This document shows, piece by piece, positions 930 through 64,000 of a stretch of DNA of 64,000 nt. Origin of the DNA: Chrysomallon squamiferum (lineage: Eukaryota > Mollusca > Gastropoda > Neomphalida > Peltospiridae). Within the stretch, counting starts at the first letter, position 1. The number at the start of each line of letters is the position of its first letter. Below the pieces are notes generated by a model. That model made no database searches. It saw nothing but the letters and a program-made list of their open reading frames with translations, and was not told the DNA's origin. The position numbers and the translations under genes were made by a program. Where the stretch lies: assembly GCA_012295275.1 (NCBI GenBank), contig CM022671.1, positions 8,915,386-8,979,385 on the forward strand. Reading direction: 5' to 3'.

Positions 930-1867
930 TAAATTCATATTTATTTTTGTGTAGGTGGATAATATTTGTGTATTATAGTTTCTGACATCATGAAATAAAA
1001 TAAAATAATAGTAATAAAAATTTAATAAAAATAAAGTTTAAAGGAAAACACATTAAGCTATATATTAGTAATATTAAATAATGTAATCACATAATGTAAA
1101 AACTGTGATTTTTGAAACTCTCTATCTTCCTTGTTTTTCACTCATTTGTTTTTTTAATCCTCAAACCACATATCAAAACCGATTCTTTTTTAAAATTTAA
1201 TTAGATCATAATTATTTTTTTAAACCCCAAAAATATATTGTAATCATTAGAAAACTAAAAACACTTGAAAGCAATAATGATAATGAAAAACTAATGTTAC
1301 ATATGTCAAATTTCAAAATATTAATTAGGAAAAATTATGTAACATAAAATCCATTTTAATGCAACATATCAATTCTTATCAACATAATAATAAAAACTGA
1401 CAGTGAGTTTTTTCTTAAGTTCCTATTCATTGATCTGATTCCAAAACCATTCATCTTAAGATTGATTCAGAAATTTGTAAATTTAATGTTTATTTAGGAA
1501 TTTGATAAATTAATTACATATTTCTTGACGTAAAATTTATTTTAACACACACAATACACATATAAATGATGAATTTTAATTTATAATGAATTAAGATTAT
1601 AATAAAATCTCTAAAGTCAACATGAAGTAAAATTTTAAATATTACAAAATATAATTACATATAAATAAATAGAAATACATAACAACAAAAACAACAATAA
1701 TACAATAACAATAAATCATAAAATAAATAATTATCTCTAAATAACCTTTAGTGTTTTTCTTAAGAATTGTAATATAATTCCTATCTGTAATTTTCAAATT
1801 AACTGATTCTTAATAAAACAAACAGTTCCATCATATTATTTAATTACACCTGGGAGAGTGACTTAGT

Positions 1868-4901: not shown

Positions 4902-4916
4902 GATAGCTGGTGACTG

Positions 4917-4947
<31 letters not shown>

Positions 4948-5051
4948 TGTATACAAATATACATATGTGTGTATGTAAGTATGTATGTCTATATAAATAT
5001 ATATATATCAGTCACCAGCTTCTTAGCATTGTGGGTCTCTCTCTCTGAGAG

Positions 5052-5096: not shown

Positions 5097-6670
5097 ATAT
5101 TTCTTTTAAAGTTTCATTCTTTCAAGTTTGTTAATATTTAATTACTACATTTTCATGAATCCAGTATGATGCATGGATATCATCTATTTCTACCACTGTT
5201 TAAATTTTTGTCATAAAATCAGGATGGTGAAATACTTATATTTTGTAATACATTCCTTTTTTTCATATGTATTTTCACTCCATTCTTTACCACACAATTT
5301 TTATTTTTTTTATTTTTAAATATGACAAATTCAATTTTTCATGTAGCACATTCAAGGATTTTCTTTTTTACCTTTTAAATATTTTATTAAAAAGTAAAAA
5401 TAAAAAAAATAAAAAGGAAAGGAAATGACAAAAAGAACAGAAGAATTTTGTCTTTTTCAGTTTTAATTTTCAGTTTATCATTATAAATTCTCCAATTCAA
5501 TCATGATGCATTAAATCTATGGCTACCAGTATACTGAAAAATTGATCACAAACAAATGAATAATAAATAAAATAATAATCATAAAAAAAATATGTACTAA
5601 ATAAATAAATAAACAAAATAAAAAAATTAAAAAAATTAAAAAAAGATGAAAAAAGAAAAGAAGATAGATGTAATTAAATAAATAAATAAAATAAAATAAA
5701 AATAACCTTTGATATCCTTTGATTTTGAAAAACTCTGATGAACATGATAAAGAGTCATGAGAAAATGAGCTCTGTTAAAACTGCACACTAATGAATGGAG
5801 GTCAACAAAACAAGAGATGATTAGTCAGTGGAGATGGTTAATTAAATATCAGTATCTTCCTACAGCTGGGGTATAATGACTTAGCATTCATTGTGACAGG
5901 TTTACTAACACTCGTATGTTACTAGCCTTTGACTAAATTCTAGATGTAATTTTCACTTCACTTCAAATTCAAACCAAGTTTTTGTTCTCATTTTAGAAGT
6001 ACATACATACTTTTGTAACATTTTAGAAATGTCATTTGTAACAACATTTGTAACAAATTTTTTTTATTTTAATAATAAAATTGACAATAAAACACAATAT
6101 TCTTAAATTGATAATAAAACACAACATTCTTGATTTAAACTTTGATTAAGTATTTAATAAAGTTCTGTTTAAATCTAAATAAACATTAAACCTAACCTGC
6201 TTGTTGGTATTATATATTCAAATCATAATATTAGTTTTATTATCAAACTAAATATTCAATATATTATATAAGTAAATAGGATTTAAAAAATTTTTTAAAA
6301 AAAAAAAAATTAATAATATGTTTTAATACTTTAAACAGAAAAACAGAAAAATAGTTTTATTATTATTCAAAAGGCTGAAACAAAGACCATTAATTCATTT
6401 TCACTGAATGACAATGTTTTGCATCATGTTTTAATAAAATGATAATTCAGCAAGGGAGAGTCATAGCCACAAGTAATTTTAAAATTTTGTCCTTCTCTTT
6501 TCATACTGAGAACTAAAATTATAACAGCATTTTCATTTCAACTTATTATTCTTTTTTCCCAGAGGATGTTTTATTTATTTATTTATTTATTTATTTATTT
6601 TACTATTTCTTTGTTGTTTTTCATTTTATTATTCAGGATGGTTTAATCAAGAGGAGAGGTGAAAGTCAAG

Positions 6671-6788
6671 GATTACATATCTTACTTTAATTCGTTTTCT
6701 TTGTTTTTTTCTTCATGTTTCAGCTAGAAGATTTGGGTTACTACAATGCTAAGAAGCTGGTGACTGATGCAGATATATATGAACTGGA
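6671..6788 (+). pseudogene. Partial duplicate of alpha2delta visible exon 1 (3' splice site plus exon start)
   Basis: This stretch matches 6789-6903: intron end, TTTCAG acceptor, then the exon start at 6724 reading [12 protein letters not shown]. The copy stops after about 65 exon bases and runs straight into the second copy of the intron end, with no donor site. It therefore looks like a tandem duplication that left a truncated exon relic. If its acceptor were used, transcription would read into intron. Confidence 0.85.
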
Positions 6789-6838
6789 TTACATATCTTA
6801 GTTTAATTATTTTTCATTGTTTTTTCTTCACATTTCAG

Positions 6839-7037
6839 CTAGAAGATTTGGGTTACTACAATGCTAAGAAGCTGGTGACTGATGCAGATATTTACGAGCT
6901 GGACGAGGAAACTCAGGAAGCTGTCAGACGCACAATTCACTATCTCCCACTTGGCCTTGACAAAGTTGAATTCAATGGCAACCCAGTCAACCTCACTGTC
7001 AGCACAATTCATGTCCCAACCAACATTTACGATAAAT
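6839..7037 (+). CDS. CACNA2D3-like: alpha2delta visible exon 1 (VWA_N region)
   Basis: Acceptor TTTCAG precedes CTA GAA GAT; donor is GATAAAT|GTAAGT. It encodes 66 residues from [11 protein letters not shown] to HVPTNIYDK, ending in phase 1. The 3' end and donor are the seed of a tandem array in the following intron, and the 5' half is duplicated upstream. Confidence 0.92.
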
Positions 7038-7662
7038 GTAAGTCTTTTTCTGATATATTTATTATGTAAAAACATTTATGATAAATGTAAGTCTTTTACA
7101 GTCTTATCTGTTACATTTATTATGTAAAAACATTTATGATAAATGTAAGTCTTTTACAGTCTTATATGATAAATTTATTATGTTAAAACATGATAAATGT
7201 AAGTCTTTTATAGTTATATCTGTTACATTTATTATGTAAAAACATTTACGATAAATGTAAGTCTTTTACAGTCTTATCTTTTACAGTCTTATATGATAAA
7301 TTTATTATGTTAAAACATTTATGATAAATGTAAGTCTTTTATAGTCTTATCTGTTACATTTATTATGTAAAAACATTTATGATAAATGTAAGTCTTTTCT
7401 GATATATTTATTATGTAAAAACATTTATGATAAATGTAAGTCTTTTACAGTCTTATCTGTTACATTTATTATGTAAAAACCTTTACGATAAATGTAAGTC
7501 TTTTACAGTCTTATCTGTTACATTTATTATGTAAAAACCTTTACCATAAATGCGAATCTTTTATAGTTTTATCTTGTACATTTATTAAGTATAAACAATT
7601 ACAATAAATGTAAGTCTTTTGTAATCTCTTATATTGTGCATTATCTTCCTTTTTATTATGAC

Positions 7663-7695
<33 letters not shown>

Positions 7696-7744
7696 ACCAC
7701 TAAATTTTAAAGAAAATTAAGGAATTAAGATTTTTCAGGTTTTT

Positions 7745-7806
<62 letters not shown>

Positions 7807-9104
7807 ATATTTGTTTTATTTAATGTAATTCTTGCAAAAAGCATGGCAGTGATCTTATGAAAATTAATTTTGTTTGCTTTGGCAGCTTCAAAAATTCTGA
7901 ATGGAGTGAAGTGGAGTAATAACCTTACAGAACAGTTTCGCATCAATGCAGAAATAGACCCAACTTTAACTTGGCAGTATTTTGGTAGTGCAGATGGCTT
8001 CTTTAGAATATATCCTGGTAGGTATTTTTGTGGATTCTTTATTAGTTATGTACTTCATGGTTTCTTTAGAATATATCCTGATATGAATTGATGGCTTCTT
8101 TAAAATATATCCTGGTGCTGTGTTATGTCTTCTTTAGAATATATTCTGATACACATTTTATAGCTTCTTTAGAATACATCATACTATGCAGTTTAAAGTG
8201 TCTTTAGAATTTATCTTTGTATATAATTTATGACTTCTTTAGAAGACATTCTTATACCTTCCATATAGAACATATGAATGTTTTAACTTCTTAAGAATAT
8301 AATTATCTTGGTACATATTTTATGTTTTCTTTAGAATATGTCCCAATTTCTGTGTTTTTTCAAAATGTATTTGCATATATACATATTTTACTATATCTTT
8401 AGGATATATTCATACACATATTTTTATAATAAATTTAGGATATATCTTTGTAAATTTTTTTCTTTAGTGTGTTTGATGAATCTATTACAGAAATACTCAC
8501 ACTTGCTACATCTGTTATAAATTAGAATTAAATACTGGCTTCATTTAAATTTCATTTCACTGAGATAATTAATTATAGTTCAACGACTTTCTTTTTTTTC
8601 TCTCATTGCTTTTTTTTTTTTTTTCCTTTTTTTTAAAACAGGAATTAAATGGCCACGGGATCCAAACAAGGTTGACATGTTTGATTGCAGGATAAGAAAT
8701 TGGTATGGCATTAAGTAACACTGGTTTTAATGGCACTAATCTGAATCTCGGCATTAATTGCAGTTCAAGGTTGCTTGTGATAAATCTGAGTTGGCATGCG
8801 TTCATTAACCACTGATTTCACTGCTTGAGTTAAAAGGAAAAGAAAATTTATTCTAAGTAACTTGTTTGATGCAGATCATTTCAATGCAAGATTGCTTTCG
8901 TTGTTTATAAATTGGAATTTTTTTTCTTTTGTTTTCTCTTTTAATTAAAAACTAGTGCTTTTTAATGTTCTTATTTTTAAAATCTTTCAGAAGTAATGTC
9001 TATTTACTGATTTTATTTTTTTCTGGGATATGACTATTATTATTATTACTATAATTAATATTTTTATTATTATCATCATTATCATCATCATCATTATTAT
9101 TATA

Positions 9105-9149
<45 letters not shown>

Positions 9150-12100
9150 TCAGAATTGTTTTGTAGGATTATTAGAACAAAACTATTCCTAAAAGTATTA
9201 AATTCTTAATATAAAATAAAAACTAAAATTTTTCTTTATTAACAATTGAACATAGATATGTATAATCTGCTTCCAGGTACATCCAAGCAGCCACTTCTCC
9301 TAAGAATGTTGTGGTTCTGTTAGACACTAGTGGAAGTATGAAAGGCTTAAGACTGAAAATAGCACAGAGCACAGTTGACAAAATCTTGGACACTCTGAGC
9401 AATGATGATTACTTCAATATTTTAAAGGTTAGTGCAAAAATGTATACCACAATTCCTGTAACACTTTATACATACATTGTTATAAAGACAAAACTTTTCA
9501 GGGAATGAGCAATTTTAGTGGTGACACTTTTGTCTGGGGAGTAAGAGGTCAGAAGATCAAACCTCTTTTGTGTCCTCACTGGATCTATTATATGTAATAA
9601 AGGAATGAACATAATAATCTTGAACCTGGCATCATCCAGTATTAGAATAACTGAGACACCCCAAGATGACACACCTTTATGATATATTCTGTATTAAGTG
9701 TAATTTTCTGCCTAGTTTTTTGTTGAAAATAATATTAAAAAAATATAATTAACTAAGTAAGTTTATTAAAATTTAACACACTGCTGGTCTGCACTATGTA
9801 TTACATATATTGACTGTAGATTATTTATAACATTTAAGCATTTGGAACAAGTAGTTTTTATTTCATTCAGTTATTCCATTCAGAATGAGATCATTCCAAT
9901 AAACACAGTTACACATCTAGGAGATGTTATACCTAAGATGAGTGTTTGTGTATTTCAGAATGAGATCATAAAAAAAAAAAAGGTTAAAACATCTAAGGAA
10001 CATTACACCTAAGGGTTTACTTAGTATGTGAAGTACCACTGTGTTGATTTTAAACTCTTATGCCACATCAAACTGTTACTAGTTTTTATCAGAATGAAAA
10101 ATTCCAGTGTAACCCTTTTACTGTTGACACTTCTCTCTTTGAAAACAGTGATGCTCTTTTGAGATGTGTCCTCACAGGAAATGTTACTTTTAGCCTCAAC
10201 AGCTCTTCTCAGAGGGAAGTTTCTTCTTGTCCATTCATTTACAGACTTGGAAATCTTTTCTGTCATTTTTCTTAAGTGTTGCATGATGGGAAGAGTGTTT
10301 TGTAGAAAGGTTTTATTAGCGGACGTGTTTCCATCCACTCAGTGTGCGATTGTTTCCTAGTCCACAAAGATCTTCTCTCACGCTTGTCTGTCACTCAGAA
10401 TCATGTCCTCATTTTAGCTTTTACTCTCTTTTTTCTTTAGTTCTTTTCATTTACCCTTTTTATTTTGATTTATATATTTTTTTTTATTTCTTTCATTAAT
10501 ATTTTTTTTTTCTTTATATTTTTTCTTTCATTTTGATTTTATTTTTCTTTATGTTTTTTCTCGTTCATTTTATTTTTCTATCACTTTTATTTATCTTTTT
10601 TCTTTTTTTTTTACTTTTCATTTTTTAGTTTTTAATTTCGTTCTTTTATTCATTTTCTTTTTTTTTTTTTTTTTTCATTTTTATTTTAATCATTTGTATT
10701 TTCTTTATTTCTTCCCTTTTTATTTTTTACTGTATATTTTTTTTATTTTAATTTGGATCGTTTTATTTTTTATTTAAATTTTTTTTTCTTTATTGTTTTT
10801 AATGTTTTCTTTGTTTCATTTACTTTTTCTTATTTCATTTAATTAAAAAAAATGAAACCTTTTTCTATCTTTTGTTTTTTCTTTTTCTTTTCTTTTTTCT
10901 TTCTTTCCTTTTTCTTTATATTTTTTCATTCTTATTTAATTTAACTCTTTTTCTTCTTCAAAAAACATTATTTTTTTTCTTTATATCGTCACTCCTTTCT
11001 TTCAGTCTAATAAATGCTTATTATTAATATTATTATTTGTTTGTTTTTATTTATATATATTTTTCTTTATTTCATTTAATTAAAAATTTTAAAAACCCTC
11101 CAAAAATGGACAGCAACAACAACAAAAAACATCCCTATCTTCTTTTTTGTTTTTTATATTTGTGGTTCAAGATGTGAACTGTTGGTAACATGAAATATGA
11201 TTTTATCTTCTTCATAACATTTAAGGTTATCAATGAATTTTCTTCATAAAATAATTTTTCATGTCATCAAATCATATTAATTTGATGAATATGCTCATTT
11301 CAGTCTCCTTCGTTCACATCATTTCTTCTTTAATATTTTATATTTCCAAAAATGTTCATCTTTTCTCATTAATTTCTTTGCCCTCAAAATACAAATTTCT
11401 TTCAACTTCAAATGGAATGAAAAAAATCATCTGATACTACTAATCTTAAAGTTTTTGTTTTTAAATCTGTTTTATTGTTAAATCTTTGACAGTGACAAGG
11501 TCACACACTTTCATCACCTGTGTGTCAGTAGTTGTGAACTGTTTTCTGTTTCAGTTTTCTGCAAACGTCTCCTATGTTGATCCTTGCTTCAGCAGAACAC
11601 TGATGCACGCGAGTGTGGAAAACAGGAAGAGGATACAGAAGGAAATCAAGCAGATTGGCGCTGAACAAATGGCAGATTTCAAAAAAGCTCTGGTTGAAGC
11701 TTTCGAACTCTTTAGGAGTGTATGTAACTCATTTTTTTAAAACGGTTTTCAATTAATTTTAATTTTTGTTTTAATTACATGTTTTTTTAAACTGTTTTTG
11801 ATTCATTTTTGTTTTTATGGTGTGCAACTCATTTGTAAATCTGTTTTTTTTATGTAACTCATTTTTTAAATATTTTTAATTAGTGGATTTTTTGGTGGTG
11901 TTTTGCATGTAACTTTTTACAGTCTTTTTAATAAATGACAGTTTTTATTTTATGTAAATAACTTTTTAAAATGTTTTAATCAATTTTGTTTTTACTCTGT
12001 GTAACTCACTTTTAACTAAAAATTTTAAATTTATTTAAAACATTTTTATATACAGTTCATAATTTAAAATGTTTTAAATCAAATTTTTAATTTTTTGGTT

Positions 12101-15100
12101 GCTTGTAACTAACTTTTGTTTTTAATTAAATGTAACTAACTTTTACAAGTGTATGGATATATGTTTTTATATAGTGCATGTAAAATGTTTTGAAATTTTT
12201 AGTAATACTGAGTATTCATTTGGAGCAAGTAATTTCAAGTAATGCAATTAATTTTAAGCAGTGTCTATAACTAAAAATTTATCTTTAAAATTTGTTTTGG
12301 TGTGCATTTAATTAATTTTGTGAATAATAACAAATACTTCAAACTGCATGTAAGAACATTTTAGAAATACATCAAACTAAAGTAAAAATAACTAAGTAAT
12401 AAAATAATGTGTATTTTTAAAAAGTAATGAGTATTGAAGACCTGTCTATTTTTTTAAACCTATCGATAATTTCTGAACAAAATGTAACATCTTATGATAA
12501 ATAATGTTAGAATTGCATGATGCAGGTAATATATTTAAATGACCACATAATGTGTTCTTAGAACGACATTTTAAGATAATTCCTATTTATTATTTTCTCA
12601 TTATGGCAGAAATCTGTTTTTCCTGCTTATTCAGCTTCTTGGTTGAAAAACAACAGTTCTTATTTCATTTCTGTAATGTTATGTTTGTCCTGCCTTTATC
12701 ACACAGTTGTTTTTGGCTTCTCATAAACCATGTATGTACAACATGCCCACTCAGTAGTCTAAATTTAGCTTTTAATTAAAGCCCATGACATCACTTGTGA
12801 TTTATTGTGTCTGATCCCTGTGTTTCTTGGTTGTATCAGTTTATTGTTAGGAGTGGCAGGGAACATAAATGATACAACACATCCTTCATACATTCATGTT
12901 TTCTCCAACCTTTAAAACAAATGCAAAATGTCAGTAATGCACATGTGAACTTGAAATAGTTGTAAATGAACTGCCATGACTTTAATGTCAACCCAAAGTG
13001 GTTTTAAATTTACAAGAGTTGTTTACAAGGGGAACAATTCAGGGTATATATTAATTCACAAGAGTAGTTTTACCTTGTTGAGTGCAATAAGAGTAATCAG
13101 ATACTTTAAGAAATGAGATAGCCTGTATTATTCATTTTCTTTGTATCTAAAATTAAAAACAAACTGGGTTAAAAAAATTTCTTTCACTTTTGCATCTAAA
13201 TTAAAAAAAAAACATTTACTCTCTTTTTCACTTTTGTATAAACATTTCTTTAATTCGTAGCTAAATAATAAGGTATTTTTAACTCCCACTTGTGTTTATA
13301 AATTTAAAAAAAGTTAAAATTATTTTTCCCTCTTACATACATATATAGATACAACTTAATTTTTTTTCCAGACACTAGTTTAAATAATGATTAAAAAGTT
13401 AACTTTCACTTGAGTGTCTAAATAAGAAAAATTTTTTTTTTTTTGGTTGTTGATCAATGCAAATTACATCAAAGAGGTTGCTAACTTCGTTCTCAGCTCT
13501 TGATGCAATATATCAACAATTACTGATGAAGAAGATCAACTTGTATGAACTTGTATTGATTTTGCTGTCTCCAAAAGTGATGCATGCAGTACTTGGAGTG
13601 ATACGTTAAAGAAATTTATCTGAGTTTATTTTTTTCTTTCTTTCTTCTGCATAGCACATATTAAAGTGAAGATTTTTTTAAACACAGGATTTCTGTTTTA
13701 GAATTTTATAATATTTCTTTCTTATTTTTTTGGAGTATTGTGTCTAGATATTCATGTGGTGTGTATATATTATATAGGTACAGTTACAAATACACATATA
13801 TACACATGGAGAATGCCAGCTTATATCCATATATATATATATAAATATACAAACATAAATATTATGCATATATATATGCATACTATTTATGTTTGTATGT
13901 TTGTACATAATTGTGTGTGTGTTCTTGTGTTGTGTGTGTCTGTGTGCACAGGTAAATGTTATGTTATGTTCAGATTGTTTAAAAGGAAAGTTTTACACAT
14001 ACTTTGTTGTGTTTGACCTGTTTTAGGTGGAGCATCAGCTGAAACGCACTCTGTGTAACAAGGTTATTATGCTGATAACAGATGGTGCTCCTGAAAATTA
14101 CGAGGAAACATTTGACCACTACAACTGGCCTAATAAAACTGTAAGTAAAACATAAAAATAAATGAAATAACTTGGAACAAAATGATATTAAAGATGATGA
14201 AATGGAAATACATTTCAGTATAATATATATTGCCAGTTATCTAACATATAGTTTCAAATTAATGTGTGGATGTAAATTATGATCAGTTATCAAGAAATCA
14301 TTATTTCTTAGGGACGTTCATTCAGTGTAGAGTTAATGAGTTGTCAAAAATAAAAACAAAAAGAGAAATATTTTAAGCTTCTCTAGTATTTATTTATTTA
14401 TTTGTTTATTTATAATCAGTACTAATTCATAAAAGCCAGCATATTTTTTTTTTTTTTGTAGGATAGAAAAAAAAATTAATGCAAAAAATTGAATAGTAAA
14501 AAGAAAATGATGTTTTTTATTATATTTAAACCATCATGTTAATAAACAAGCTAAAAAGTAATTAAAACATGTGTATCTAAAAATCAGTGACTAATGTAAA
14601 CCTGAATTATTTTAACTGATTTTAGATTCAATTGTTTACATTGATTTTAGATTCGAGTGTTTACATACCTCATAGGTAAGGAGGTTTCAGAAAATAGACA
14701 GGTGCAGTGGATGGCATGTGCAAACAAAGGTAAGTCATTGTCTTTTTGTTTGATTCTTTTTGCAAACAAAGGTAGATCATTGTCTTTTTGTTTGATTCTT
14801 TCCTTATTCAAATCATATTGTTACTTCTGTTTTGCATTTTTTCATTTTATATTTTTATTATTTTTATTTTATATTTTTTGTATTTTTTTTTTTTTTAAAA
14901 GATTTTATTTTATATTTATTTATTTTTTTTAAAAATTAATTTTTTTATTTTTTTTATGTTTTTTATTTGATTTTTTTTGTGTTTTTTATTTATATTTTTT
15001 TTTTGAAATATTTTATTTTACATTTTATTTTTTTTTTTTTTTTATTTTATGTTTTTTATATTTTTTTATTTTTTTATTTTTTTTTTTTTTTTTTTTTGTT

Positions 15101-18100
15101 TTTTTTTTTTATATTTTATATTTTTATTTTATTAATTTTCATTTTTATTTTATGTGTTTTTGCTTTTTATATTTCATTTTGTTTTGATTTCTGATATTTT
15201 TATTCTTATTTTATTTTTTATTATATTTTATATATATATTGGTATTTTTGTATTTTATGTTTTTATTTTTGGTAATTTATTTTACATTTATTTTTTTATT
15301 TTTTTTTATTTTATTAATTTTCATTTTTTATTTTATGTGTTTTTATTTTTTATATTTCATATTGTTTTGATTTCTGATATTATGTTTTATATTTTTATGC
15401 TTTTTTTTTATATTTGATATATTTGATATAGATATATATTTTTATATTTTATGTTTTTATTTTTTGTAATTTATTTTATAGTTTATATTTTTGTATTTTA
15501 TATCATATTTTATATTTTAAAATATTTTTTCTTCTAATATTGTTCTGTCTTATTTATATTAATATTTTTATCTCTAGCCTAAAAAAACCCCAATAAAATG
15601 AAAAGCTTTAAAATGATTTTATATTTTCTCAATATACAAATAAATGAATGCTTATTTAAATACTATTTTAAATAAATTAAAATGCTTGTTAAAACCAGAT
15701 ACTTTATAAATCCAACTTAAGCAATTTTTAAATAATAATTTGTATTGATTTCTTTTTTCTTTTAATAATTTTCATCATAAGCTTTGTTTTCAATGTGCTG
15801 AAAACTCTATAATCTCTATTTATTGTGCTAAAGTAAGTAATTTTGAACAGTACTTTATATACTGACATATTTTTCATCATTTTCTTCCAACTTTCTGTAT
15901 TATATGGGGTGTCTGAAATCCAATGTATGTTTTTGTGCTGAAATTTAAAATATTTATTTTTATTATACAGGTGATCATACTCATATTTCAACCAGAGCTG
16001 ATGTGCAGGAAAATGTCCAGGTATACATGTTAAATAATAAAAATTATAATAATGTTAAATAACATGGTTTGTTTAGAAATTTGAACATTTCAAGTTTAAT
16101 CAATATTAAAACATTTTCAAAACAATTATTAGAAAAAGATAAAATAAAATTTTTAGAAAAAATAAAAAACAAAAATAAAAAAATAAAAAAAATAAAATAA
16201 GTAAATGATAATAAATTAAAAAACATTATAATAATGTAAAATAAAATAAAATTAATTAAATTGAGAAAAAAATAAAAAATTTTTAAAAAAAACAAAATAA
16301 AATAAAACAATGAAAAAAAAAAATTTAAATAAAATATTAAATTAAAAAATAAAATAAAGTACTAATAAAAAATCTAAATTTTAAAATAACAACAACAAAA
16401 TAAATCAATTAAAATGTATGAAAATCAATAAAAAACTGTACTAATAAAAAAATAATAAATTTTAAAAATGTTAACAACTTTAACAAATGAAAACTAATTT
16501 TATTATTTTTAAATGAAACCTTAAAAAAAAAAAAAATTCTATCAAAATAGTTTCTTTTCTTAAAGACAGTTTAAAGATATTTTTTAAAATACCAACTCAA
16601 AATAAGATCTCTGAACTATTTTTTTATTATTCCATTGCAAAATATGAAATTACATTTTTGCAAGAAAAGTTATCTATTATTTTCTGAAGACTTATTATTT
16701 ATTTTTGAAATTAAAAAAAAATGGCCTTTAAAATACAAAAAGAAACAAATCCTAAATGTCAACAGTTTGATGTCAGCTAAAAACATTAATGTTTATTTTA
16801 AAATATAACTGTGTCAGAAGAATTAATTAGTAGAAATATATCATATGATACTACTTCATTTTCTAAATGACAGAATGTTTTAAAAAAAAGTTTTTTATAC
16901 TGGGTTTTTTAAACCATTTTGTAAAGTGCAAGAATATTTTAAAAATCCATTTTTAATTGAAATACCTTCTAAAATAATATGTTTTTGACATGCTCTGTAT
17001 CAGGAGCTGAACTAGTTGTGTTTATAGGTGGTATCTGAATCACAATGTGTTAATGTTCTTGAATTTAAAAAAAAAAAAAAAATTAATTTGTTTATTTTAT
17101 TTATTTATTATTTATTTTATGCAATTATTTTTATGTTTTGCTGAATACTAATTTATATTGATATGAATTACAGTTTGAATAATAGAATTGTTTTTAATCT
17201 GTTATAATATATTGCTTAGAAAAGGATTATATTTTTTATTATTGAAATATGTATTGTTTGAAAAAATTTATTTATCAAAAACAATAAAGTATAAGGAATA
17301 GAAACATTTTTTTTTTTTTAAAAATACATAATTCAGAAATTGTTTTGTTTTCATTAACTGATCCAAAATTAATTTAAAATTATAATAAAAAGAATATAAT
17401 TTTCTAAATTATGATTAGTAAAATAACACACACACACACAAACACACACACACTCACACACACAAATATAAGACCACCAAAATATGTGAAATTTCAAAAT
17501 ACTCTCTGAATATCTTTTAAATGAAGTTAACTTAAGTACTTTTTGCTATAACCCATAATTTCCAAAATTCACGAAAAAACAAAATAATTAAAAATTTAAA
17601 ATTTAAAACAAATAAACATTGTTTTCTTCAAAAGCAATACATCAAGGTGCTGAGTCGACCGATGGTTCAGGAGAAGTACAGAAACACGATACTAACCTCC
17701 GTGTATCTCGACTACCCCACCGAGCAGGACAAGATGCTGGAAGTCCCAGACGCCACTTTTAACCCTTTCACTGATCTGCTGGGAACTGGCGGAAATAAGG
17801 TGAGTTTGTTACAAGAGTTAACTTTATTTAGATGTTATATGTTCCAGATTGTATTTTTTTTTTTAAATAAGGAATTAACTGTTTTCATATTTTTTAATTT
17901 TTAAAAAAAATTTTGACCTTTTTAAAAAATTGGAATGATTTAAATGATATAAAAAGTTAAAAATTGTTAATCTAAAAAGAGAAACAAAGATATTCCATTT
18001 TTTAAATTTTTAAGTAAATGAAAATAATTTCTCATACTTAGTTTAAAAGTGTTAAAATTATTTATAAATAGTGTATTTCATAGTATCCTTTTCAGAACTT

Positions 18101-19203
18101 GGATATATTATAATAGTTTTTTGTGTATGTAGTCTGTTTGGATTTTTTTTTTTTTTTTTTTTTTTATTTAATAGATTTTTATAAATCTAAAAGGTAAAGA
18201 AGGGCATTTCAGTGTACATAATTTTGAAATAAAAAGAATTTAGAAACAATATATACAATTAACTAGAACATGGATTTGAAACAGAAAATGTTAGCAAGTC
18301 TAAATACAGTATAATTTACCATTAAATAACACAACATGACATGGATATAAAATATAAATGACAAACATAGTATTTCAAATTAATAACTTAACAGTATTTT
18401 AATAAATGAATAAAATACACATATCATGACATTTTAATAACATAATTTTAATAAATTAACAACCTAACTATTTTAACAAGTAACTAATACACAAGAGAAG
18501 TATCAGGTGACCGATGTATGTAATTATTGTAACAAATGATGTAATTTTGCAGGGGCTGGGTTTAATGATGTCAGTTGCGATGCCAGTGTTCGACAGAAGA
18601 GAGTATGCACCTCCTTCCCCTGAATCTAAGGTATAATTTTTAATAAAAGTTTTATTCAAAACAATGTAAATATTTGATTATTCAACAGAATACAAAATGG
18701 AAAAAAAAAAAAAACATTTGTTCTAATTTTATGATCTTAATATGAGATTATAAAAAATAAAAATATATATAATTGTTTTATCTTTTTTGAATGTTTTTTA
18801 TTTTTTCCAATTTGAATTCTGTTGAATAATTAAATATTTACATTGTTTTGAACAAAACTTTTATATTGTTAATTATTTAATATTTTAATAACACTCCTTT
18901 ATAGCTTAATTAAAAAATAATATTTTTCTAATTGCACTATATTATTATCAGCATCATCAGCAGGATTATTATTATTGTTATTGTTGTTATCATTACCATT
19001 ATTATTAGTAGTAAAAATAATTATAATAATAATTTTATCTTCATCATCTTTATTAGCAATACCATATTTATATCATCATTCTTGTTACCATCATCATTAT
19101 TACTATTGTATATTATTATTAATATTATTACTATTGTTATTATTATTGACATTATTAGTATTGTTTATTATTATATTTATCATCATCATCGTCATCATCA
19201 TCC

Positions 19204-19252
<49 letters not shown>

Positions 19253-19309
19253 TATTATTTTTGACATTATTAGTATTGTTTATTATTTATATTTATTATC
19301 ATCATCATC

Positions 19310-19344
<35 letters not shown>

Positions 19345-19349
19345 CATCA

Positions 19350-19410
<61 letters not shown>

Positions 19411-19430
19411 CATTATTATTATTATTATCA

Positions 19431-19485
<55 letters not shown>

Positions 19486-22400
19486 GATTATTATTAATAT
19501 GATTGTGTTGTTGTAGAAAGACAAAGAACCGGAGAGTCCAGTTGAAAACTTGCTAGGTGTTGCAGGGACTGATATCAGCATTTACGACTTGATGAAACGC
19601 ATTCCTATGTACAAGGTGAATCAATGACTTAAATGTATTAGCAGTTGTGTTAAAAAGTTATCTAATTCTTTAGAACTTCCAAGTTGTTATTTTACTGTTT
19701 TTGTGTACTATGATAGCAAAGTATGACAGTAAAATAATAGTATTACAAAACATTTAAAAATTTTTTTTTTAAAATTGAAGTTCATGATATCGTTGTGTAT
19801 ATGGCAGACTGATAGTTTTTCTCACAGAACTAGAAGAAACATTAAAGAAAATCTATCTGCTCTGTACATTATGTTGTCTCAACTACAGAAAACCAGCAGT
19901 GCTCAGATATTTTTAAACTGTACTCTTTTGTTGTTATAGTTTGGATAGCAAAACAAAACCAAACCAAAAAAACCTCCTTAAAATCTAATGAACAAATAAA
20001 ACCAATTAAAAATATTTCAGACTATAGTAGATTACACTTCTTTATAATCATAAAAAATAAACTTAATGAAAAAGTGCATTTTTACATGTATTCTAACAGA
20101 GTTCATAGTATAATCTATTATTAATCAAATAAAACTCATACTATTTTTTTTATATTCATTAGACTTCATTGGAAAAAAAATCTTACATAAAAACTAGTTA
20201 ATTATAATATAACAGTTCTTACATAAACTGATTGATAATCCATTTTCCAGAATCTGACACTGAGATATTGCAGTTGTAGACATTTTCAAACTTTAATGGT
20301 ATATTTTGTTTGTTTTATATATATTTTAGTATTAATTATCACATTCAAATGCAAATGTGTAATTTACAAATTATTAACTGAATATCTTGCTGGTTCATTA
20401 GTTCAGTTTCTTTGTGATGAAATGAATTTAATATGAGATTAAACTGTTTTTCAGCTAGGTGTCAATGGATATGCTTTTGCCATCACAGACAATGGATATA
20501 TTATCTTTCATCCTGATTTTAGACCTTTGGTAAGTGTCAAAACATAAACACTGTAAAATTATCATTTTTGTTTATAATTATTCTTTCCTTTTCTTTCCAT
20601 TCCTTGATCTCTTAACCACTAAGATGCCAAACTAAAGTTAAATTATTAAAGTTAAGCTGTTTAATTGTTTTTGCTGTTTTGTTTTATCTAGGATATTGTT
20701 TTTTTTTATTGTGTTTTTGTTTTGTTTTTTTCTAGCTGGTAAAAGAGTCTCCTGCAATGTTTGGTAAGCCTAGTAGATTACACGCCAAACCAAACTACAA
20801 CAGCGTTGACCTCACAGAAGTTGAGTTAGCTGTAGATCCACTGAGAGTTCAAGAGGTGAGTCCCATACCCATTACAGTTACCATCATCATCGTCATCATC
20901 ATCATCATTGTCATTTTCATGTTCATTATAATTACCATCATCAATACCATATCATAACTGTCATTATAATCAATTATCATTAATATTATCATTATTGTAA
21001 TCTTTCTAGTTGAGAAGTTTAATGCTGGATCCTCAGTCAGGTGGGCTACAGATGAACATAACCTATCACTATGACAACTTGGTAAGTATTAACAGTGTAA
21101 AACTCAAACAATCATAACCAAACTGCAAATGAAAATAGAGTCAGCAAGTTAGTGAAATAAGTAGTACCACACACCAGGCAGCAAATAAAACATGAATTAG
21201 AAAGTTAATGAAAATTAATGTTCCTTTAAGGGATTATAATCAAACAGCAAATGAAAACAGAGTTAACAAGTTAGTATTAATTAGCAATACTGATACTGTA
21301 GATCTGGCTGGAGAAAATCTGAACATAATAAATCACTGCATTCCTGGTGGAACATCATTAGATATTTTAAAATTTAAATAAGTTTTAATAAACATTTATT
21401 TTATACATATTTGTATTCTTAAATACTGCTAAATATAAATATTATTTATTTATTTATTTATTTACTTTTCAGAAGCGTGTTAGACTGCGGGGAAATCAGT
21501 ATTATTACAACACTATTTTAAACAGATTCAGGTATCTTCATTCCTCTGTTTCAAAACTGTTTTTACTGTTATCATCATTCTACAAGTAAATAGTATTAAT
21601 AACAGTAAATGTATATGTAACTCTGTGTATTAATAGTCTGTGTGCATGTTATACATTTCATTGAGAAATAGAGTAATTTAAATACATGTGTGTATTTGTA
21701 AGTCATTATTAGTAAATTGTATACGAATTAGATAATTTCCTATAGTTTATAATTAATGTCTTTCTTAAAAAAATAATGATAAAATGATGATAGTAATAAT
21801 AATAATGATAATAATAATAGTCATATAGTAATAATAAAAATAATATGATAAAGAACAAAAAAATATTTTAAAAAGTGAAAAGAAAAATTTGGTCTTACTT
21901 GAAATGAAAACATAATGTATCCTGAGACTGTATTGATTCCATGTATTTCACAGCTTGGCTTTTGTGATTCCAAATGGATATGGAAAGAACAAACTTCATC
22001 TTAAGGACACAGTACTGACATCAGGTATTTAAGATAAATCATCTCTATGCTCGAAAGTTGCTTAATGTTTTATGTAAGTTTAGTTACAACTAGAATGATC
22101 AGTTCTGAATTAACCTCTACTTTTAGTTGTTATAGTATATTGAGTTATAACAGAAAACTGTCTTTAATTCATGAATAGTCTGACTTTATGAACAAAAAAA
22201 AAAAAAAAATAAGAATGACAGTTACCTGTTTTATAATTTTCAAGACAGTATTATAGAAAAAAAAAAAATTTAATTTAATATCATTCATGTTATTTCAATT
22301 CTCGTAACATGAAATAAAGAATACATGGTGGTTTTTTTAAATTCTTTTTGGCAGATCAGTTGTTTTTGGACAGTTATTTAAAAATATAAACTGTTATAAT

Positions 22401-25400
22401 TAAAATATGATTTAAAAAAATTCAGTATCCTCCTTTTGACTTTAGTCAGAATTGTACATCTTCATGCAGCTCTTTTATTAAAATGATATGAAATTAATTT
22501 AATTTAAATGGCTAAATAACCCCAGGTGAAATGTATTGATTAAAAATGAGTGTGTTTCAGAAGACTGTTGATTTTTAAAATTTGGTTTTAGATGAACATT
22601 ACCTAAATGATGCCTGGATGTTTATTGCACCTTGGTAAGTTGATACAACAATTTTGTATTGTCTTGAATGAATGAATGAATAAGAGATGAAAACCTGATA
22701 CACTTTGATTGAAAGGAATATTAGATACTGATGAATGATATATTTATTACACTCAGCAATTAGTGAAAAAGTAATTTTTTACAAGCACAATATATCACAA
22801 ACAGAAAAATATATACCAGTCTTTAGAGAATTAGCTGGCTGCATAAAGTAATGGATCCCATATTGTCTTTTTTTAATAAAGTGTGTGTATGTGCATGTGT
22901 GCATGCCAGCATTGTGTGTGTGTGTTCATGCACTTGTGCAAGCTTAAACCTATGTTTGTGTGGGTTAAGATATTCATTTTGTTATACACTTATTATCCAA
23001 GCTGACAGGTATGTTAGTTAGGTTTATTATATATATTAGTGATGTTTCTGAAGCTTTCATATGCAGATGTATAAGAACTTTATATTTAGACTGTATCTTC
23101 TTGCAGGGTGTTTTGTAAAAACCAGGAAACTGGATCAATGTATCAGCTAACCAAAGAACAACTTAGACATTTAATTTCAACAGGGGAGTTCAGACATTCC
23201 ACAGAATGTAAGTTGTCAGTCTCTCATACATCTTCCATGCTATATAGCTATTAACATGAGCTTGACAGAAATTCAAAATCTTAATCATTTGTCCATTAGT
23301 CTTTTTATCAACATACCTATCTCATCACTATATGAATATATTAATCTGTCTCATAAATATATTCATCTTAACAATCTGTTCATCCAATCCCTTCCATCCC
23401 AGGTCCATTCATCACATGATTGCATTCATTTATTCTTCCATTCATCTATGATTCCATTTGTTCACTGATCCAATAACCTCTTGCAAGTACTTTTTTCAGC
23501 ATCTCAATAAACAACTGATAACCATTGATGTAATCCATGTGTCATCATAGCTTGGATATTGTTAATTACTTCAGAATTGTAAAATCAAAATGTACACACT
23601 TGTATGTAAAACATGTAACAAAATGAATGATTTTGTCTGCAGGTGACCCTGATCTGCTGAAACACCTGATTCTCGATGCTAAGATCACAGACAACTACAC
23701 AAAACTGTGGAAAGGTCTGGTCACAAGCCCACAGAGAGAAGACAGACAGTTCCGTGGGTTTTCAGTATTGTGAGTTTTTAAAACATTTTACACACAAATA
23801 TATATATATAAAAAATATTCATGATATAAAACTTTCTTAATTGTTATTGTAAAATTTTCTTCTTTTTTTTTTGTTGATTTTAAATCAAACCTACTTTTGT
23901 GGCCAGTTTTTTCCCTCATAATGCATATTATAAATCTGTATTAGAACCACCTGTGTCTAACAACTGCTTTTATCTTGTTCTTCAGTGGCCATCTAAGACA
24001 GGCTTCACATTGTTTTCTGAATTACAACATCTGTGTAACATTGTCTGACATTAGTAATTGTTATGTCATTCTTATTTTATTTCCAGAAATGAATATACAA
24101 AAAAATGCTTTACGAGATTTTGGAATGATACAATGAAAGAGAAATGTGTTTTCAATATCCATCAACAGTAAGTAAAGCTGTATCAATAAAGAAAGAAAAA
24201 CATACAATATCAGTCTGTTTTAGTTATCTGCTGTTCCATACCACCATTAAAGTATTTAATTTTAATTTACAGTATTTTATATAGACCAGAATTCAGTCAA
24301 ATATTTCAGTACTCAAGAAAATAGAACAGTATTTTTCATTTTTGGTATTGTACAATTTTTAATTCTTGCAAATATCAAGTAAACTTTACTTTACAACATT
24401 TTATAAATAAAATATTTCAAAACTCAAGAAAATTTATTTCTGGTAATAAATATTATCTGAGTAAACATATGCTGGTAAACAGACACTGTATAAACAAAAT
24501 AATGCCAAGAAGACAAAACAGATATACATTGAATGAATTTCACACTGTTGGATATCTCAATTATGTTTCAGGTATGGAATACAGCTTATTTTTGTAGGAA
24601 CCAGCAGTGGCCTTACCAGGTTTTTGCCTTTAGTTTCCATAGAGTTAATAATTGATCAGTAAGTACATCTTTGTCAAATTTAAGTCTTTAATTATGGCAC
24701 TGAAAATAATTAACTGTATATATTTTTACTTATAAAAGCATACATATGAAGTTAAACACATAATGGTTTTGTTTCAGGGGTAGACTTTGCTTATAATGAA
24801 GATTGGTAAAAACGTATGACTTGATCTTGAAAAACACTTGTTTCTTTTCTGTACAGTCACTGATAAAAGAAATGAAACAAATAATTAAAGTTGTTATAAT
24901 TATCAAGATATTTGTTGATGTATCTATTTTCCTATAAAACTTGATGTTATGAGTACAAATAAAAGAAAAAGAGTGGCAGCCTCGATTTTTCTCTTTCTTT
25001 TTCTATAAGATTTGTTGCAATATTCAATCATATATCTGCCATAACATGTTATTGATTTTAAATATTAAAAATCTATTTTTTGTTGAATATGTGCTGTAAA
25101 CACTTTTTAAAGTGAAAATAATACATCATATGAAGAAATTGTTGACTCTTTTTGTCAGGAGTTTTGTTGATACTAACAGAAGAACGATCATGGATCTGTA
25201 TTACCAGAGAGCTGTGAATGGGTGGGAGGATGGTTACAATTACACCTTCCACTTGAGAAAACCTGTTGGTAAGTACTGTTCTGCTTATTATTTAAAAGAA
25301 ACATAGCAGAATGGAAAAAAAAAAGCTTAATGTAAATAATAAGTATCTGAAATGTTGAATGAATGGAAGGACAAATTTCACAGTGGATGGATGGATAAAT

Positions 25401-28400
25401 GGACTGCTACATCAGAATGTAACTTAAGAATTTGTATCTTTAATTACTTACTGTTTAAGAAAATGTAGTAGGGAATTTATATTTTATATTTATTCTTGAC
25501 CTTGAATTAATAATGTATATACTTTATTATTTATTAATAATATATTTAATTAATCATGTAATACTATGTCCACTTCATGGTGTAATAATAATCTATATAC
25601 TTGAACATAATCTATATATTTGATTATGCAATAATAATATGTATACTTGATTGTGTTATAATATATCTACTTGACAGTGTAATAATATGAATACCTGACT
25701 ATGAATTAATAATAATATGTATACTTGACAGTGTTATAATAGCCAGTAAACTTGACTGTGTAATAATCTCTGTGTATTTGTGTTTAACAGAAGACCTGTC
25801 ACTGGCCACTGTGGTAATGTCTACACCAGAAGTCATAGCCAAACATGACAAAAGAAAACAGTCAGTGGCTGCTGTGGTTGGCTTTGTGATGACCTTTGAC
25901 AAATTTCACGAGGTGTTTGAAAACATCACCTACAACTGTCCTAGAGACATGAAAGAGGGCTGTGAATACACATGTAACAATACTGATGTGAGTATATTAG
26001 ATTTACACTGAAATAAAACATGTTAATACACATGTAACAATACTGATGTGAGTATATTAGATTTACACTGAAATAAAACATGTTAATACACATGTAACAA
26101 TACTGATGTGAGTATATTAGATTTACACTGTGAAATAAAACATGTTAATACACATGTAACAATACTGATGTGAGTATATTAGATTTACACTGTGAAATAA
26201 AACATGTTAATACACATTTAACAATACTGATGTGAGTATATTAGATTTACACTGAAATAAAACATGTTAATACACATTTAACAATACTGATGTGAGTATA
26301 TTAGATTTACACTGAAATAAAACATGTTAATACACATTTAACAATACTGATGTGAGTATATTAGATTTACACTGTGAAATAAAACATGTTAATACACATG
26401 TAACAATACTGATGTGAGTATATTAGATTTACACTGAAATAAAACATGTTAATACACATGTAACAATACTGATGTGAGTATATTAGATTTACACTGAAAT
26501 AAAACATGTTAATACACATTTAACAATACTGATGTGAGTATATTAGATTTACACTGTGAAATAAAACATGTTAATACACATGTAACAATACTGATGTGAG
26601 CATATTAGATTTACACTGTGAAATAAAACGTTAATACACATGTAACAATACTGATGTGAGCATATTAGATTTACACTGTGAAATAAAACATGTTAATACA
26701 CATGTAACAATACTGATGTGAGTATATTAGATTTACACTGTGAAATAAAACATGTTAATACACATGTAACAATACTGATGTGAGTATATTAGATTTACAC
26801 TGAAATAAAACATGTTAATGCACATGTAACAATACTGATGTGAGTATATTATATTTACACTGTGAAATAAAACATGTTAATACACATGTAACAATACTGA
26901 TGTGAGTATATTAGATTTACACTGTGAAATAAAACATATGGCAGTACAATATCATGTGCCAGTTATTGATATGGCAATACAATATCATATGCCAGTTATT
27001 GATATGGCAATACAATATCATATGCCAGTTATTAACATAAATGAAAAGAAATATAGTTATATGAAATTATGTTTTATGTATGTGTCTGGTATAAGATCTA
27101 TTTTTTAATACAAAATCAGCTTTATATATGAAATGTTATTAACTTGTAAACAATCATATGTATTTCATGGTATATGATATATCATTTATATTGAGTTAAA
27201 AAAAACACAAAAAAAGTTCAGTATGTAAATGTTATTTATTTGTAATAATTGTGCATAATTTATTCATATGTTTTACATAAATATAATTTAAATATTTAAA
27301 ATGTTGTTTATTTGTGCATATTTACTTATATATCATTTTATATTCTTATGCTTTACATTACACACAATCTACTTTCAGTATGTGAAATGTTATTTACTTG
27401 ACAATAATGGCTTTGTCATGACATCCAATAGTGCTGATGATTTAGGTGTAAGTATAAACAGTTTTTATTATGTCATTAAATAGTCTTTCTTCCTTCATTA
27501 AATTTATCTTTTCCCTGTTGTTTTACTTAGTTTTGTGAATCCAAAGGAAAAAAAGCCCCAACTAATTCTGAGACATTCAAAAAAACCCAAATTCTTCCTT
27601 GATAATTATTTTTTAAAGTTTATTTTCTGTAACTTTAAATGGATGTATCTATCAACAAATATTGTATATGAACAAGAAGTCATTATTTAAAATAATTTTA
27701 ACATTGATATCTTTTAAATGAAGATAATTCAAACCTGTTTATAAAATGATTGTTTTTACTGCTGTCTTTTCAGTTTTCATATGGGTCAACATAAACTGTG
27801 TGTATGTGTGTGTCTATATAATATATATATATTGTACACATTCTTTTTTCAGGCTGGTAGTTTTTTTGGCATGGTGGATGGAGCTCTCATGAGAGAATTA
27901 ATTGAACAACAGATTTTTGATGAGTACGTATGAAAATATATATATTAAAACTAATTAAACAATAAGTTTATCAGCAGACACATGCATGCGTTCATGCCCG
28001 TACACACAAACACAGACACATGTAAATAATTTTATACATAAAATTATGTACACATACACTCATACAGAGATACACCTACAAATATACATAATGTACAATC
28101 ACAAACTTTTTACTTCAGTTGTATGGTTGTGAGTTTGTAAAAATATATATTAAATAAAAATGTGTTTGTGACAGTTATTGAAAGAACACACACACACACA
28201 CTTATCATTTCCATTAACACATATTTTAATGTGTTCGTGTATTTTAATATTTTAATGTAATATTTGCATTTTAGAATTGAAGTTACTGACTACCAGGGTA
28301 CTTGTAAAATGTATGCTAATATAAACACATCATAGTCTATATGTATAATTAATATAAACATAATATAGTATATATGTGTTTCATAATATAAACATATGTT

Positions 28401-31400
28401 AGTTTATATATATATGTACTTTAACCACAAAAACACTAGTTTGTGTGTGTATGTAAATATCAACATGTACATGTATGTGTATATTAATATATACTAATGT
28501 GCATGTGCATTTTAACATAAACATATATATTTGTAAACCTGTAAAATTTAACATAAACAAATGCTAATGTGCAATGTGTATGTGTATTTAATGTAAATAT
28601 ATTCTAATATGTAAATGTATATTGTTATGATAATGTGTGTGTGTGTGTGTGTGTGTTTTAAAATAACTATATATTAACGTGTAAATATATTTTAATAATC
28701 CTATAGTTTTATTTCTATAAGTAATTATTAAGAATACAATAACACTGGTGCTAATGTACTCATGTATTTTTGCTATGAACTAAATGCAAATTTATATTTT
28801 ATTACAACATAAGTGTACTTTGATGTAAAACTGTTAATACTTGATATGCATTTTGAAATAATCATGTGGTAATATAATGTCAAATTTGAATAATTTTTTA
28901 TTTATTTGTTTGTGTTTGAATATAAACTATTATTATATTGTGCAGTATTTAAATACAGATATATATACACACACACACACACACATAGACACACATGCAC
29001 ACTCTCATACACACACATATATGTACATCCTCCTATATTTTAACTGAAGTTTTTAACTATATGTATAAAATGATTATTAATAATAAAATACATACATATA
29101 TACTGATATTTTAATTTTTTTTAAAACCCATGTACTTAAGTGTATCTAAACATTAATATAGTTTGTTATAAATTTTCTGCAGTGTTTTATATCTGACATA
29201 TTTGACTATCTGTGTATAAATATGATAAGACTGCTTGTATTCAAAACAAAAATCAATATATATATATATATATATATGTAAAAGAGTATTTTAATAGGAA
29301 TAATTAACAGTGTCATATATTAATATTATGTTATAAATACTACTTTGTTTGACTAGGCTATATATATCATAAGACAGCTTGTATTCAGATGTGTGTTTTT
29401 TAACTACAAACAGTTAACATTTTATTACTAATGAACTGTTTTTCAGGATTGAAGTCACTGACTATCAAGGTACATGTAAAGTGTTTGCAAGTGATTCAGA
29501 CAATTCAGCTACATTCCTGATAAATGTGAGAGTAGTTTCTTTTCTTTTCTTTTTCATTTTTGGAAATTAATCTTTATTTTTTATTTGTTATGAGCATTGT
29601 TTAAGTTAAAAAGGTCATCTTTGATAGAAGCTTGTTATTGAAAATGTTTTAAATTAGATGGAAAATGTTCTTAACATTATTTTAATTATTTTGCTATCTG
29701 CATTTATTTACCAATATTTCAACACTGAGAATGTTAATTATAATATATATTTAAACAACATTTATAAAAAGTATGTTTTAATGAAACTACTGTCATTTTT
29801 ATAATTTTTAATTTTTAGAAATACATTTTTTTTTTTTTCAGTCATTATTTTAGCAACATATCTAAAAATATAATTTAACAAAACTCATTAATTTTTTTTT
29901 TCGTCTTGTTTTGTGTGTATATTTTAATTAATTTTGTTGTCATTATTTTAACAACACATTTCAAATATAAACCTTAATAAAACTTTCTTTTTGTAGCCAT
30001 TTTATTAATAACATATGCAAAATATATATTTTAATATTAATTAATTTGTTGGGTTTTTTTTAGCCATTAAAACAGCTGTTTAACTGGATAACATGGTCCA
30101 TTGCTGAAACTGTCCTGTAAGTTTTTATTTATTTATTATTTTTATTTAACATCTCACTGTACGAACATATCCATTGGTGTTTTTTTTAATAATTTGCTAT
30201 CATCTAAAACTTACTGATAGATTCATGATTCCACTGGAACCCAAGTTAATTTTCATTATTTCTTAAATATGGTTTTTCAGTATTTTCACATTAAATGTCA
30301 CCAATGGTCTTATTTTGATAAACTTTAATAAGCAGACAAACACTAGTTAAATATAAAACAACATTTTGAGGTTTTTTCATCAATACTACTCAAGCTAAAT
30401 TATAAAGTGCTACTTACAATGAAAAAGGAATTAACTATATTTTCTTTTTCTTCATTATTATCATCATCATTGTTTTTATTGTTATCTTCATCATCATCAT
30501 CATTGTTATTATTGTAATTATTATAATATTAATTATTGTTTATATTTCAGATTTTTATCAGAATGGAATTTTTACAGTTGGATAAGTAACAGATTTAAGA
30601 CTAAAGGTGTGTTTGTTGATCAGTCATTAAATAACAATAAATAAATAAATAATATTAACAAAAAAAAAAAAAAAAAAAAAAAAATGATAATATACATATT
30701 GTTTTTAATCATAGTCATTAAATTTTTAATTACATACATTGTGTGCACAAGTGTGACTGATCATAAAAAAATATTTATATACATTTAAATTTTGTTTTTT
30801 TGGTTCATTATTTCAGCTGAAGAAACATATTACGATGGTTTTGTTGACACAGAAATAGGGTTGCCTGAGATTGTGAAATATTACACCAATTTCATGGCTG
30901 GAGCTGGCTGGACTGAAGATAAAATAGTTAATTACGAAGCTTGTGATAAAAAAGTAAAACTGTACAATCTTAACCTGGCGACACTGAGAAAGAAAAATAC
31001 TATAGTCGACACCATCACTGGATGTGGAAACTGTGAAGCATATACACCAGGGTAAGTGAAACATTTACTAGCCTTCTTCTCTTGGCTTTGTTGTGTTTTT
31101 AACGGAGAAGGCCCACAAGGGAAATAATTCTATATTTCGGAAGAATGTGTTATTTAAATATTTGTTATTGTTACTATCATTGTTATAAGAGTTATCATCA
31201 TAATCATAAGCATATTTTAATTTTAATTATTATAATTATTAATATCATCATCATCATCATCATTAAGACAGTATGGTAGATAAATTATTAAAGAAGAATT
31301 TCTTTTAAATGTAATCTATACTTTTTACTGAATAATAAAATAATGAATAATGATGATGATGAATAAAAATGTAAATTAGAAAATGTGACTGTTTTTATTA

Positions 31401-42702: not shown

Positions 42703-42733
<31 letters not shown>

Positions 42734-43339: not shown

Positions 43340-43682
43340 TTATGACAGTTTCACCTTAACACTGTCTTGAAAACTCTGACAGCAGGCGAGCTTGTATGAT
43401 GCTTGTATAATTAAAATGACTGGTATAATAATCCATAAACTGTTCATAAATACAAAATAAAACCAGAAATACTGTGGATGGTACATTTCTCCATGTGTGA
43501 AGTCTTCTTGGATTTCTGTCATGAAGTACAAAGTGTCTCCATACAGCTCACAAAGGGAAACAATTAGCTGTAAAATATACCGGTATGGGCTGTTGCGGAA
43601 ATACGCTATCACTGTAAATATGCACAGGGGTCCATCTACAAAGGCTGTGATTCTTTCCATACACAGTACAAAGGTGTCTGAG
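43340..43682 (-). CDS. EBP: EBP exon 3 (last)
   Basis: Acceptor ATTCCAG before CTCAGACACC. Encodes SDTFVLCMERITAFVDGPLC onward to SVKVKLS and TAA at 43340-43342. Copy 2 of this exon (63614-63956) ends SVKVKMS. Confidence 0.95.
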
Positions 43683-45277: not shown

Positions 45278-45352
<75 letters not shown>

Positions 45353-63956: not shown

Positions 63957-64000
63957 CTGGAATAAGAAAAAGTAAGAACAAATTTGAAAAATTAGGTTAT

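Follow-up and report, generated by a model that had tools for sequence, protein, structure and literature searches.

Mirage-type tandem arrays at splice junctions of an alpha2delta-3-like gene in the gastropod Chrysomallon squamiferum

Six tandem arrays in an alpha2delta-3-like gene of Chrysomallon squamiferum are built of units that each contain a true exon edge together with the true splice site, as found by TRF, self-BLAST and reading of the sequence, and all six lie where a preliminary description of this DNA had placed them. We consider it likely, with a probability of roughly 0.68, that these are mirage-type arrays, which arose by ordinary tandem duplication on a local scale in a genome rich in minisatellites, were tolerated at splice junctions and later expanded and decayed. 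The window, by which we mean the whole 64-kb stretch of DNA analysed (C7:8915386-8979385), belongs to an assembly of 404.6 Mb in 22 contigs and has a GC content of 25.8%. Its host gene was delineated by splice-site reading, protein matches and domains:

6839..31051, + strand: alpha2delta-3-like gene, 29 exons, A to CC

The exons, which were built by reading splice sites, join into 999 codons free of stops, with every intron GT/AG, and encode the domains VWA_N, VWA and VGCC_alpha2. A tblastn search with the Haliotis or Patella orthologue gave a match in 24 of the 29 exons and none in exons N, Q, R, T and BB. Among the 120 protein relatives listed of 2154, the alpha2delta-3 proteins of Haliotis cracherodii (54%) and Patella vulgata (51%) rank highest, and amphioxus reaches 37%. 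The gene is likely to have further 5' exons upstream of exon A, in L005/L004, and one more exon at its 3' end, near 34667-34816. Upstream of exon A, 95 copies of a 31-bp unit form a very large minisatellite (1867-4749), which is probably within the gene. A fragment of exon A (..GCTGGTGACTGA..) is present twice in the upstream intron, in opposite orientations, at 4905-4930 (+) and 4997-5032 (-), the two copies flanking TA/CA repeats. Elsewhere in the window, an EBP/EXPERA sterol isomerase-like gene (43343-45752, - strand) has no TRF array over the four internal junctions that we read, and a lysine-rich protein gene contains a 153-bp (51-codon) x4 repeat within an apparent coding exon (50820-51424, - strand).

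The six arrays, and two further junctions of the same gene at which copies of an acceptor and exon start were found, are:

6670..6903, + strand: array a, 115 bp x2, comprising the polypyrimidine tract, the acceptor and 65 nt of exon A
7022..7620, + strand: array b, 11 donor copies, comprising 16 nt of exon A and GTAAGT
7993..8460, + strand: array c, the native site and 11 decayed copies of about 35 bp, comprising 25 nt of exon B and the donor (copy count by our own segmentation, end at 8460 set by reading)
14617..14666, + strand: array d, 25 bp x2, comprising the acceptor and 16 nt of exon G
14719..14801, + strand: array e, 42 bp x2, comprising 11 nt of exon G and the donor
25961..26937, + strand: array f, 60-62 bp x16, comprising 27 nt of exon W and GTGAGT
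27105..27408, + strand: array g, at the acceptor of exon X, self-copy score 44
28224..28320, + strand: one decayed copy of the acceptor and exon start of exon Z, 58/75 identical (E 8e-12), also a tblastn match

Four of the six are donor arrays (b, c, e and f) and two are acceptor arrays (a and d), so that exon G (14651-14729) has an array at either end; unit lengths given by TRF range from 25 to 115 bp. TRF alone draws four of the six over the junction, beginning array b at 7041 and array c at 8057, and self-BLAST extends these two into the exon, back to 7022 and 7993. Copies in array b are spaced 48-73 bp apart, mostly 58, with the native donor after 7037, the end of exon A (6839-7037); the native donors of arrays c and f lie after 8017 and 25987. 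Array g has three decayed copies at 27105-27345, upstream of exon X (27379-27447), whereas exon Z (29447-29525) has a single decayed acceptor copy, which lies 1.17 kb before it and is followed by a 33-bp array at 28317-28414. The acceptors of exons X and Z come in addition to the six junctions named before. A weaker case suggested at the exon E donor (11716-12160) fell away, with 17/24 identical positions, repeats that by reading seem confined to the intron side, and no place among the passing junctions of the self-copy test described below. The TRF match of 95-96% in the youngest arrays and 68-74% in the oldest agrees with the earlier impression of a repeated process with products of differing ages.

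The position of the native site within each array, and the fate of the spare ones, suggest how such duplications could have been tolerated. In array a, the downstream copy provides the native acceptor and the upstream copy, whose spare acceptor lies before 6724, runs into a stop. Read-through in arrays b and f hits a stop ahead of the first spare donor. The copies of array d are offset by 25 nt, so that the upstream acceptor would break the frame. Overall, use of a spare site would lead to a stop (a, b, c and f) or a frame shift (d), and array e alone stays in frame: its native donor follows 14729 and its second donor 14771 (donor scores 12.5 and 6.0), and use of the latter would add 42 nt, or 14 codons. 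This extended form is a possible natural isoform. The 14 codons fall near the VWA domain.

We therefore envisage that short tandem duplications, with units of 25-115 bp, would arise throughout AT-rich introns, and that some units would cross a splice junction. There, a duplication would be tolerated as long as one complete copy of the junction stays beside the exon, the 5'-most for a donor and the 3'-most for an acceptor; because this copy always remains, the exon would be unchanged and the spare copies would be mere intron. The array could later grow, shrink and homogenise in the manner of a minisatellite, and at last decay. The duplicating step may have been slippage or template switching, and stops and frame breaks suggest that the spliceosome would choose the native site. 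The anatomy of the arrays, the intact site beside the exon, the stop or frame break in five of six arrays, the loss of spare donors in the oldest array, the link between junction matches and local array density, the lack of unit matches elsewhere in 325.5 kb apart from an exon A fragment, the recurrence in other genes and the amphioxus precedent support tolerated duplication, and the roughly two-fold excess of junctions found under nulls of one unit per event speaks against it.

It is conceivable that spare sites are more than tolerated and that selection keeps the arrays as redundant donors or as a regulator of splicing or expression. GTAAGT is kept in 10 of the 11 copies of array b, all 16 copies of array f have a GTGAG donor (GTGAGT in 14, GTGAGC in two), and the in-frame extension by array e would also fit such a role. 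However, the donor, exon and intron parts of array b are about equally conserved (mean column identity 0.955, 0.895 and 0.913), with no clear extra conservation of the donor, whose retention can be put down to the youth of the array; array f is 96% alike overall, and acceptor arrays exist too, with spare sites that would break the frame. In array c, the oldest, the copies retain 73% of the exon part but 49% of the donor hexamer, a pattern that we read as neutral decay beside a constrained exon, and GT is left in 4 of 11 copies; judging by this sequence, spare donors are not maintained there. The proposal made earlier, that selection retains redundant donors, is not supported, and we regard this explanation as improbable.

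A more serious competitor to tolerated duplication is a mechanism that favours splice junctions, be it through the step in base composition from exon to intron, through transcription-linked nicking or through short inverted repeats. The verdict on such a bias depends on the null chosen: measured against coverage there is none, and with one unit per event it is about two-fold. When whole arrays were rotated against the exon map, 6 of 19 touched a junction, with 5.9 expected (P 0.59). When each array was represented by one unit, rotated or freely placed, the same 6 of 19 compared with 1.8 expected (P 0.003-0.006), and for complex units 6 of 9 with 1.0 (P 5e-5), although the complex-unit filter favours units that contain exon and both counts rest on the hand-extended ends of arrays b and c. 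When the boundaries drawn by TRF were used instead, these figures became 4/19 against 1.8 (P 0.08) and, for complex units, 4/8 against 0.9 (P 0.006).

We also applied a junction self-copy test that is independent of TRF, in which a score of at least 34 counts as a pass. Six of the 58 junctions of the gene passed (A acceptor, A donor, B donor, G donor, W donor and X acceptor), array d falling below the cut-off with a score of 32, and 26 of 276 intron controls passed as well (9.4%). Chance similarity is excluded as the source of junction matches at the cut-off used, since none of 290 dinucleotide-shuffled trials in this gene and none of 1540 in the outside sample passed. A dense scan of the introns yielded first-unit expectations of 2.8, 2.2 and 1.8 at three cut-offs (P 0.06, 0.02 and 0.01), whereas coverage led us to expect 7.4 against the 6 seen, no excess (P 0.74). 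Taken together, the one-unit nulls in this gene indicate a 2.2-3.3 fold excess with P of 0.003-0.06, and the small P values are optimistic because the gene was picked for looking odd. The freshest arrays (95-96%) are not accounted for by a longer detectability of exon copies.

DNA outside the window was sampled too: the 20 kb upstream of it, a 200-kb block with an alpha2delta paralogue, five 10-kb stretches taken arbitrarily from contigs C1-C5, and two dynein stretches of 8 kb each. A simple exon finder was trained on the 29 exons. At a low cut-off it made 36 predictions and recovered 28 of the exons exactly; at a cut-off of 30, the one applied later, it made 20 predictions in the training sequence, 19 of them exact, and in addition one on the minus strand and two in the reversed sequence. 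It drew a largely colinear alpha2delta paralogue gene, and the outside exons are predictions, some of them false. In the 200-kb block and C1-C5, 6 of 308 junctions passed against a first-unit expectation of 2.6 (P 0.05), alongside 35 of 1367 intron controls (2.6%). The tally of 6/308 was reached from 8/310 by leaving out one false exon (144401) and one hand-added exon (in L027), and the donor at 150352 (score 33, under the cut-off), the arrays in L027 and L031, and the one at L021:5916-6200 stand outside all tests. At stricter cut-offs the outside excess shrinks (3 against 2.0) and, at the strictest, vanishes (1 against 1.6), and under the coverage-based null the outside sample has no junction excess. 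Gene and outside sample pooled gave, with rising cut-offs, 12 against 5.4 (P 0.0098), 9 against 4.2 (P 0.028) and 7 against 3.45 (P 0.06) under the one-unit null, in a comparison that is post hoc.

Junction matches follow the local density of intron arrays. At a score of at least 34 and an entropy of at least 3.6, the alpha2delta-3 locus combines a first-unit rate of 0.048 with 6/58 junctions, a block with a Met/Ron-like gene 0.036 with 5/38, and the alpha2delta paralogue block 0.010 with 1/44, while the other three blocks of the 200 kb have rates of 0.003-0.015 and 1/154 junctions, that one being the false exon; in C1-C5, none of 72 predicted junctions passed. Complex arrays are concentrated at the alpha2delta-3 locus: the 20 kb that precede the window contain 9, compared with 12 in the entire 200-kb block and 3 in the 50 kb from C1-C5. 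In the dynein stretches, with 48 predicted junctions, one complex array lies over a junction. With its single junction of 44, the alpha2delta paralogue was dismissed as a second "hot gene". The candidates at 51876, 84650 and 144462 of the 200-kb block were likewise discarded, since reading showed that minisatellites of a 42-bp family and satellite-like sequence had been taken for exons. This 42-bp family occurs at separate places (C7:13841418-13842113 and C7:13874650-13875570, in L011 and L014), and its open frame misleads exon finders.

A mechanism that favours junctions would thus draw on the roughly two-fold excess under one-unit nulls, reaching 3.3-fold in this gene, and on the exon A donor junction, where two perfectly complementary 7-bp arms enclose a 3-nt loop (ACATTTA CGA TAAATGT). 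Against it stand the lack of any excess over intron coverage and the fading of the excess, outside the gene at stricter cut-offs and within it when TRF's own ends are taken (P 0.08 for all 19). Moreover, the six array junctions and the other 52 are alike in DNA folding energy and inverted-repeat length (P 0.41 and 0.11), on which grounds we rejected junction hairpins as the seed. As to the earlier suggestion that duplication favours these sites, the excess per event may speak for it, and measured by coverage, in this gene and the outside sample, arrays overlap borders no more than expected. We rate a junction-favouring mechanism as unlikely, though a modest preference may exist and the idea is clearly ahead of the remaining alternatives. 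Similarly doubtful is the far-reaching idea that tandem duplication in this genome truly strikes splice junctions as mutational hot spots, at about two-fold or more over the intron interior per event, and that from amphioxus to molluscs such events steadily supply introns with exon fragments and spare splice sites; if it were true, such hot spots would feed intron growth and new isoforms.

Junction arrays occur in at least four genes of this genome, the alpha2delta-3-like gene included, the others being a Met/Ron-like receptor gene, a dynein gene and a probable dynein exon:

L031:5808-6104: 53-bp x5.6 array (94%) that includes the donor and about 8 nt of an exon with the end ..TPLTDR, within the AAA_6 region of a dynein
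L027:668-795: 64-bp x2 array (98%), a whole exon of about 52 nt and its donor duplicated
L022:607-742: acceptor x2, in a gene for a receptor, among whose exons are PSI and tyrosine-kinase exons
L021:5916-6200: about nine repeats of an acceptor-like unit that run up to an exon, in the Met/Ron-like block

The L027 exon, for which no Pfam match was found, we take to be dynein, and the receptor gene in L022 is presumably Met/Ron; four more junctions of that block pass besides L022:607-742. At L021 the similarity on the exon side was judged by eye, the alignment spanning the intron side only. Another array in the dynein stretch L031 (4247-4397, 44 bp x3.4, 95%) begins 20 nt past the donor of a dynein exon and excludes the exon edge. 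Arrays of this kind mislead gene finders: our trained exon finder called the spare copy of exon A and the read-through of the dynein donor array as exons.

This recurrence also bears on the possibility that the copies arose from misassembly of long reads. Such an artefact might be suspected, as a gap of 200 N (52273-52472) lies within the window beside a near-identical duplicate of 11.6 kb, but the gap is 25 kb away from the nearest array, junction arrays recur on contigs C2, C3 and C7, and the copies differ among themselves (TRF match 68-96%), with old decayed and short two-copy arrays included. We consider an assembly artefact very improbable. The near-identical stretches are 32090-43726 and 52473-64000 (95-98.6%); the second begins directly after the gap and probably represents another haplotype that the assembly retained. 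It contains an alpha2delta 3' exon and the final exon of the EBP-like gene, and it does not reach the six arrays.

A mobile element inserted at junctions, introner-like or other, is about as improbable. Introners occur as dispersed copies, and they are reported to bring splice-site-bearing sequence into many genes (PMC9860276). The units described here instead consist of the local exon edge, and in 325.5 kb (<0.1% of the genome of 404.6 Mb) the six units are not matched elsewhere, except for the exon A fragment mentioned above, which lies in the intron upstream of that exon, for which reason we rejected a dispersed element.

While the preliminary description knew of no named class of element of this kind, the arrays fit the mirages reported from amphioxus (PMC3087553, PMC3902484). 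Mirages have been reported there in Adh3, in the globins BflGb6 and BflGb9, and, in PMC3902484, in TnC and PGBD5; they consist of minisatellite-like units of 10-160 bp that span an exon-intron boundary on the donor or acceptor side, with splice signals in many, not all, copies, and regular splicing is reported. Copy-number polymorphism and somatic instability also belong to the definition of a mirage. In the snail gene, tandem units likewise span the boundary, with 11-65 nt of exon each, both boundaries are affected (four donor and two acceptor arrays, plus the acceptor copies of exons X and Z), units of 25-115 bp lie within the reported range, and splice signals persist in many but not all copies. 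Unlike the amphioxus cases, this one is from a mollusc, in a window of 25.8% GC, and involves six to eight junctions in one gene; the duplication of a whole short exon at L027 is a further difference. The mirages that we found in print are all from amphioxus, and no molluscan case was found in largely general searches of the open-access literature.

Other comparisons place the arrays beside related forms of duplication. In human segmentally duplicated genes, tandem repeats of about 30 bp occur at exon-intron boundaries and are able to alter splicing (PMC2812944); half of these are in coding exons and novel introns are possible, whereas in the snail the exons are intact and the copies intronic. 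The model of Rogers, in which introns are gained through tandem genomic duplication of a proto-splice site (PMC2891723, PMC4974935), shares the raw event, a local duplication that includes a splice or proto-splice site. Unlike in that model, the snail exons stay intact and in frame and existing introns lengthen, with no new intron seen in the exon map alone. The arrays present spare donors and acceptors at dated stages, fresh, middle-aged and decayed, which lets splice-site competition, intron lengthening and the Rogers model be examined directly. Mirage-type repeats are thus a known, rarely described kind of structure, apparently extended here to a new phylum, and their presence in several mollusc genes suggests a more general process in minisatellite-rich genomes.
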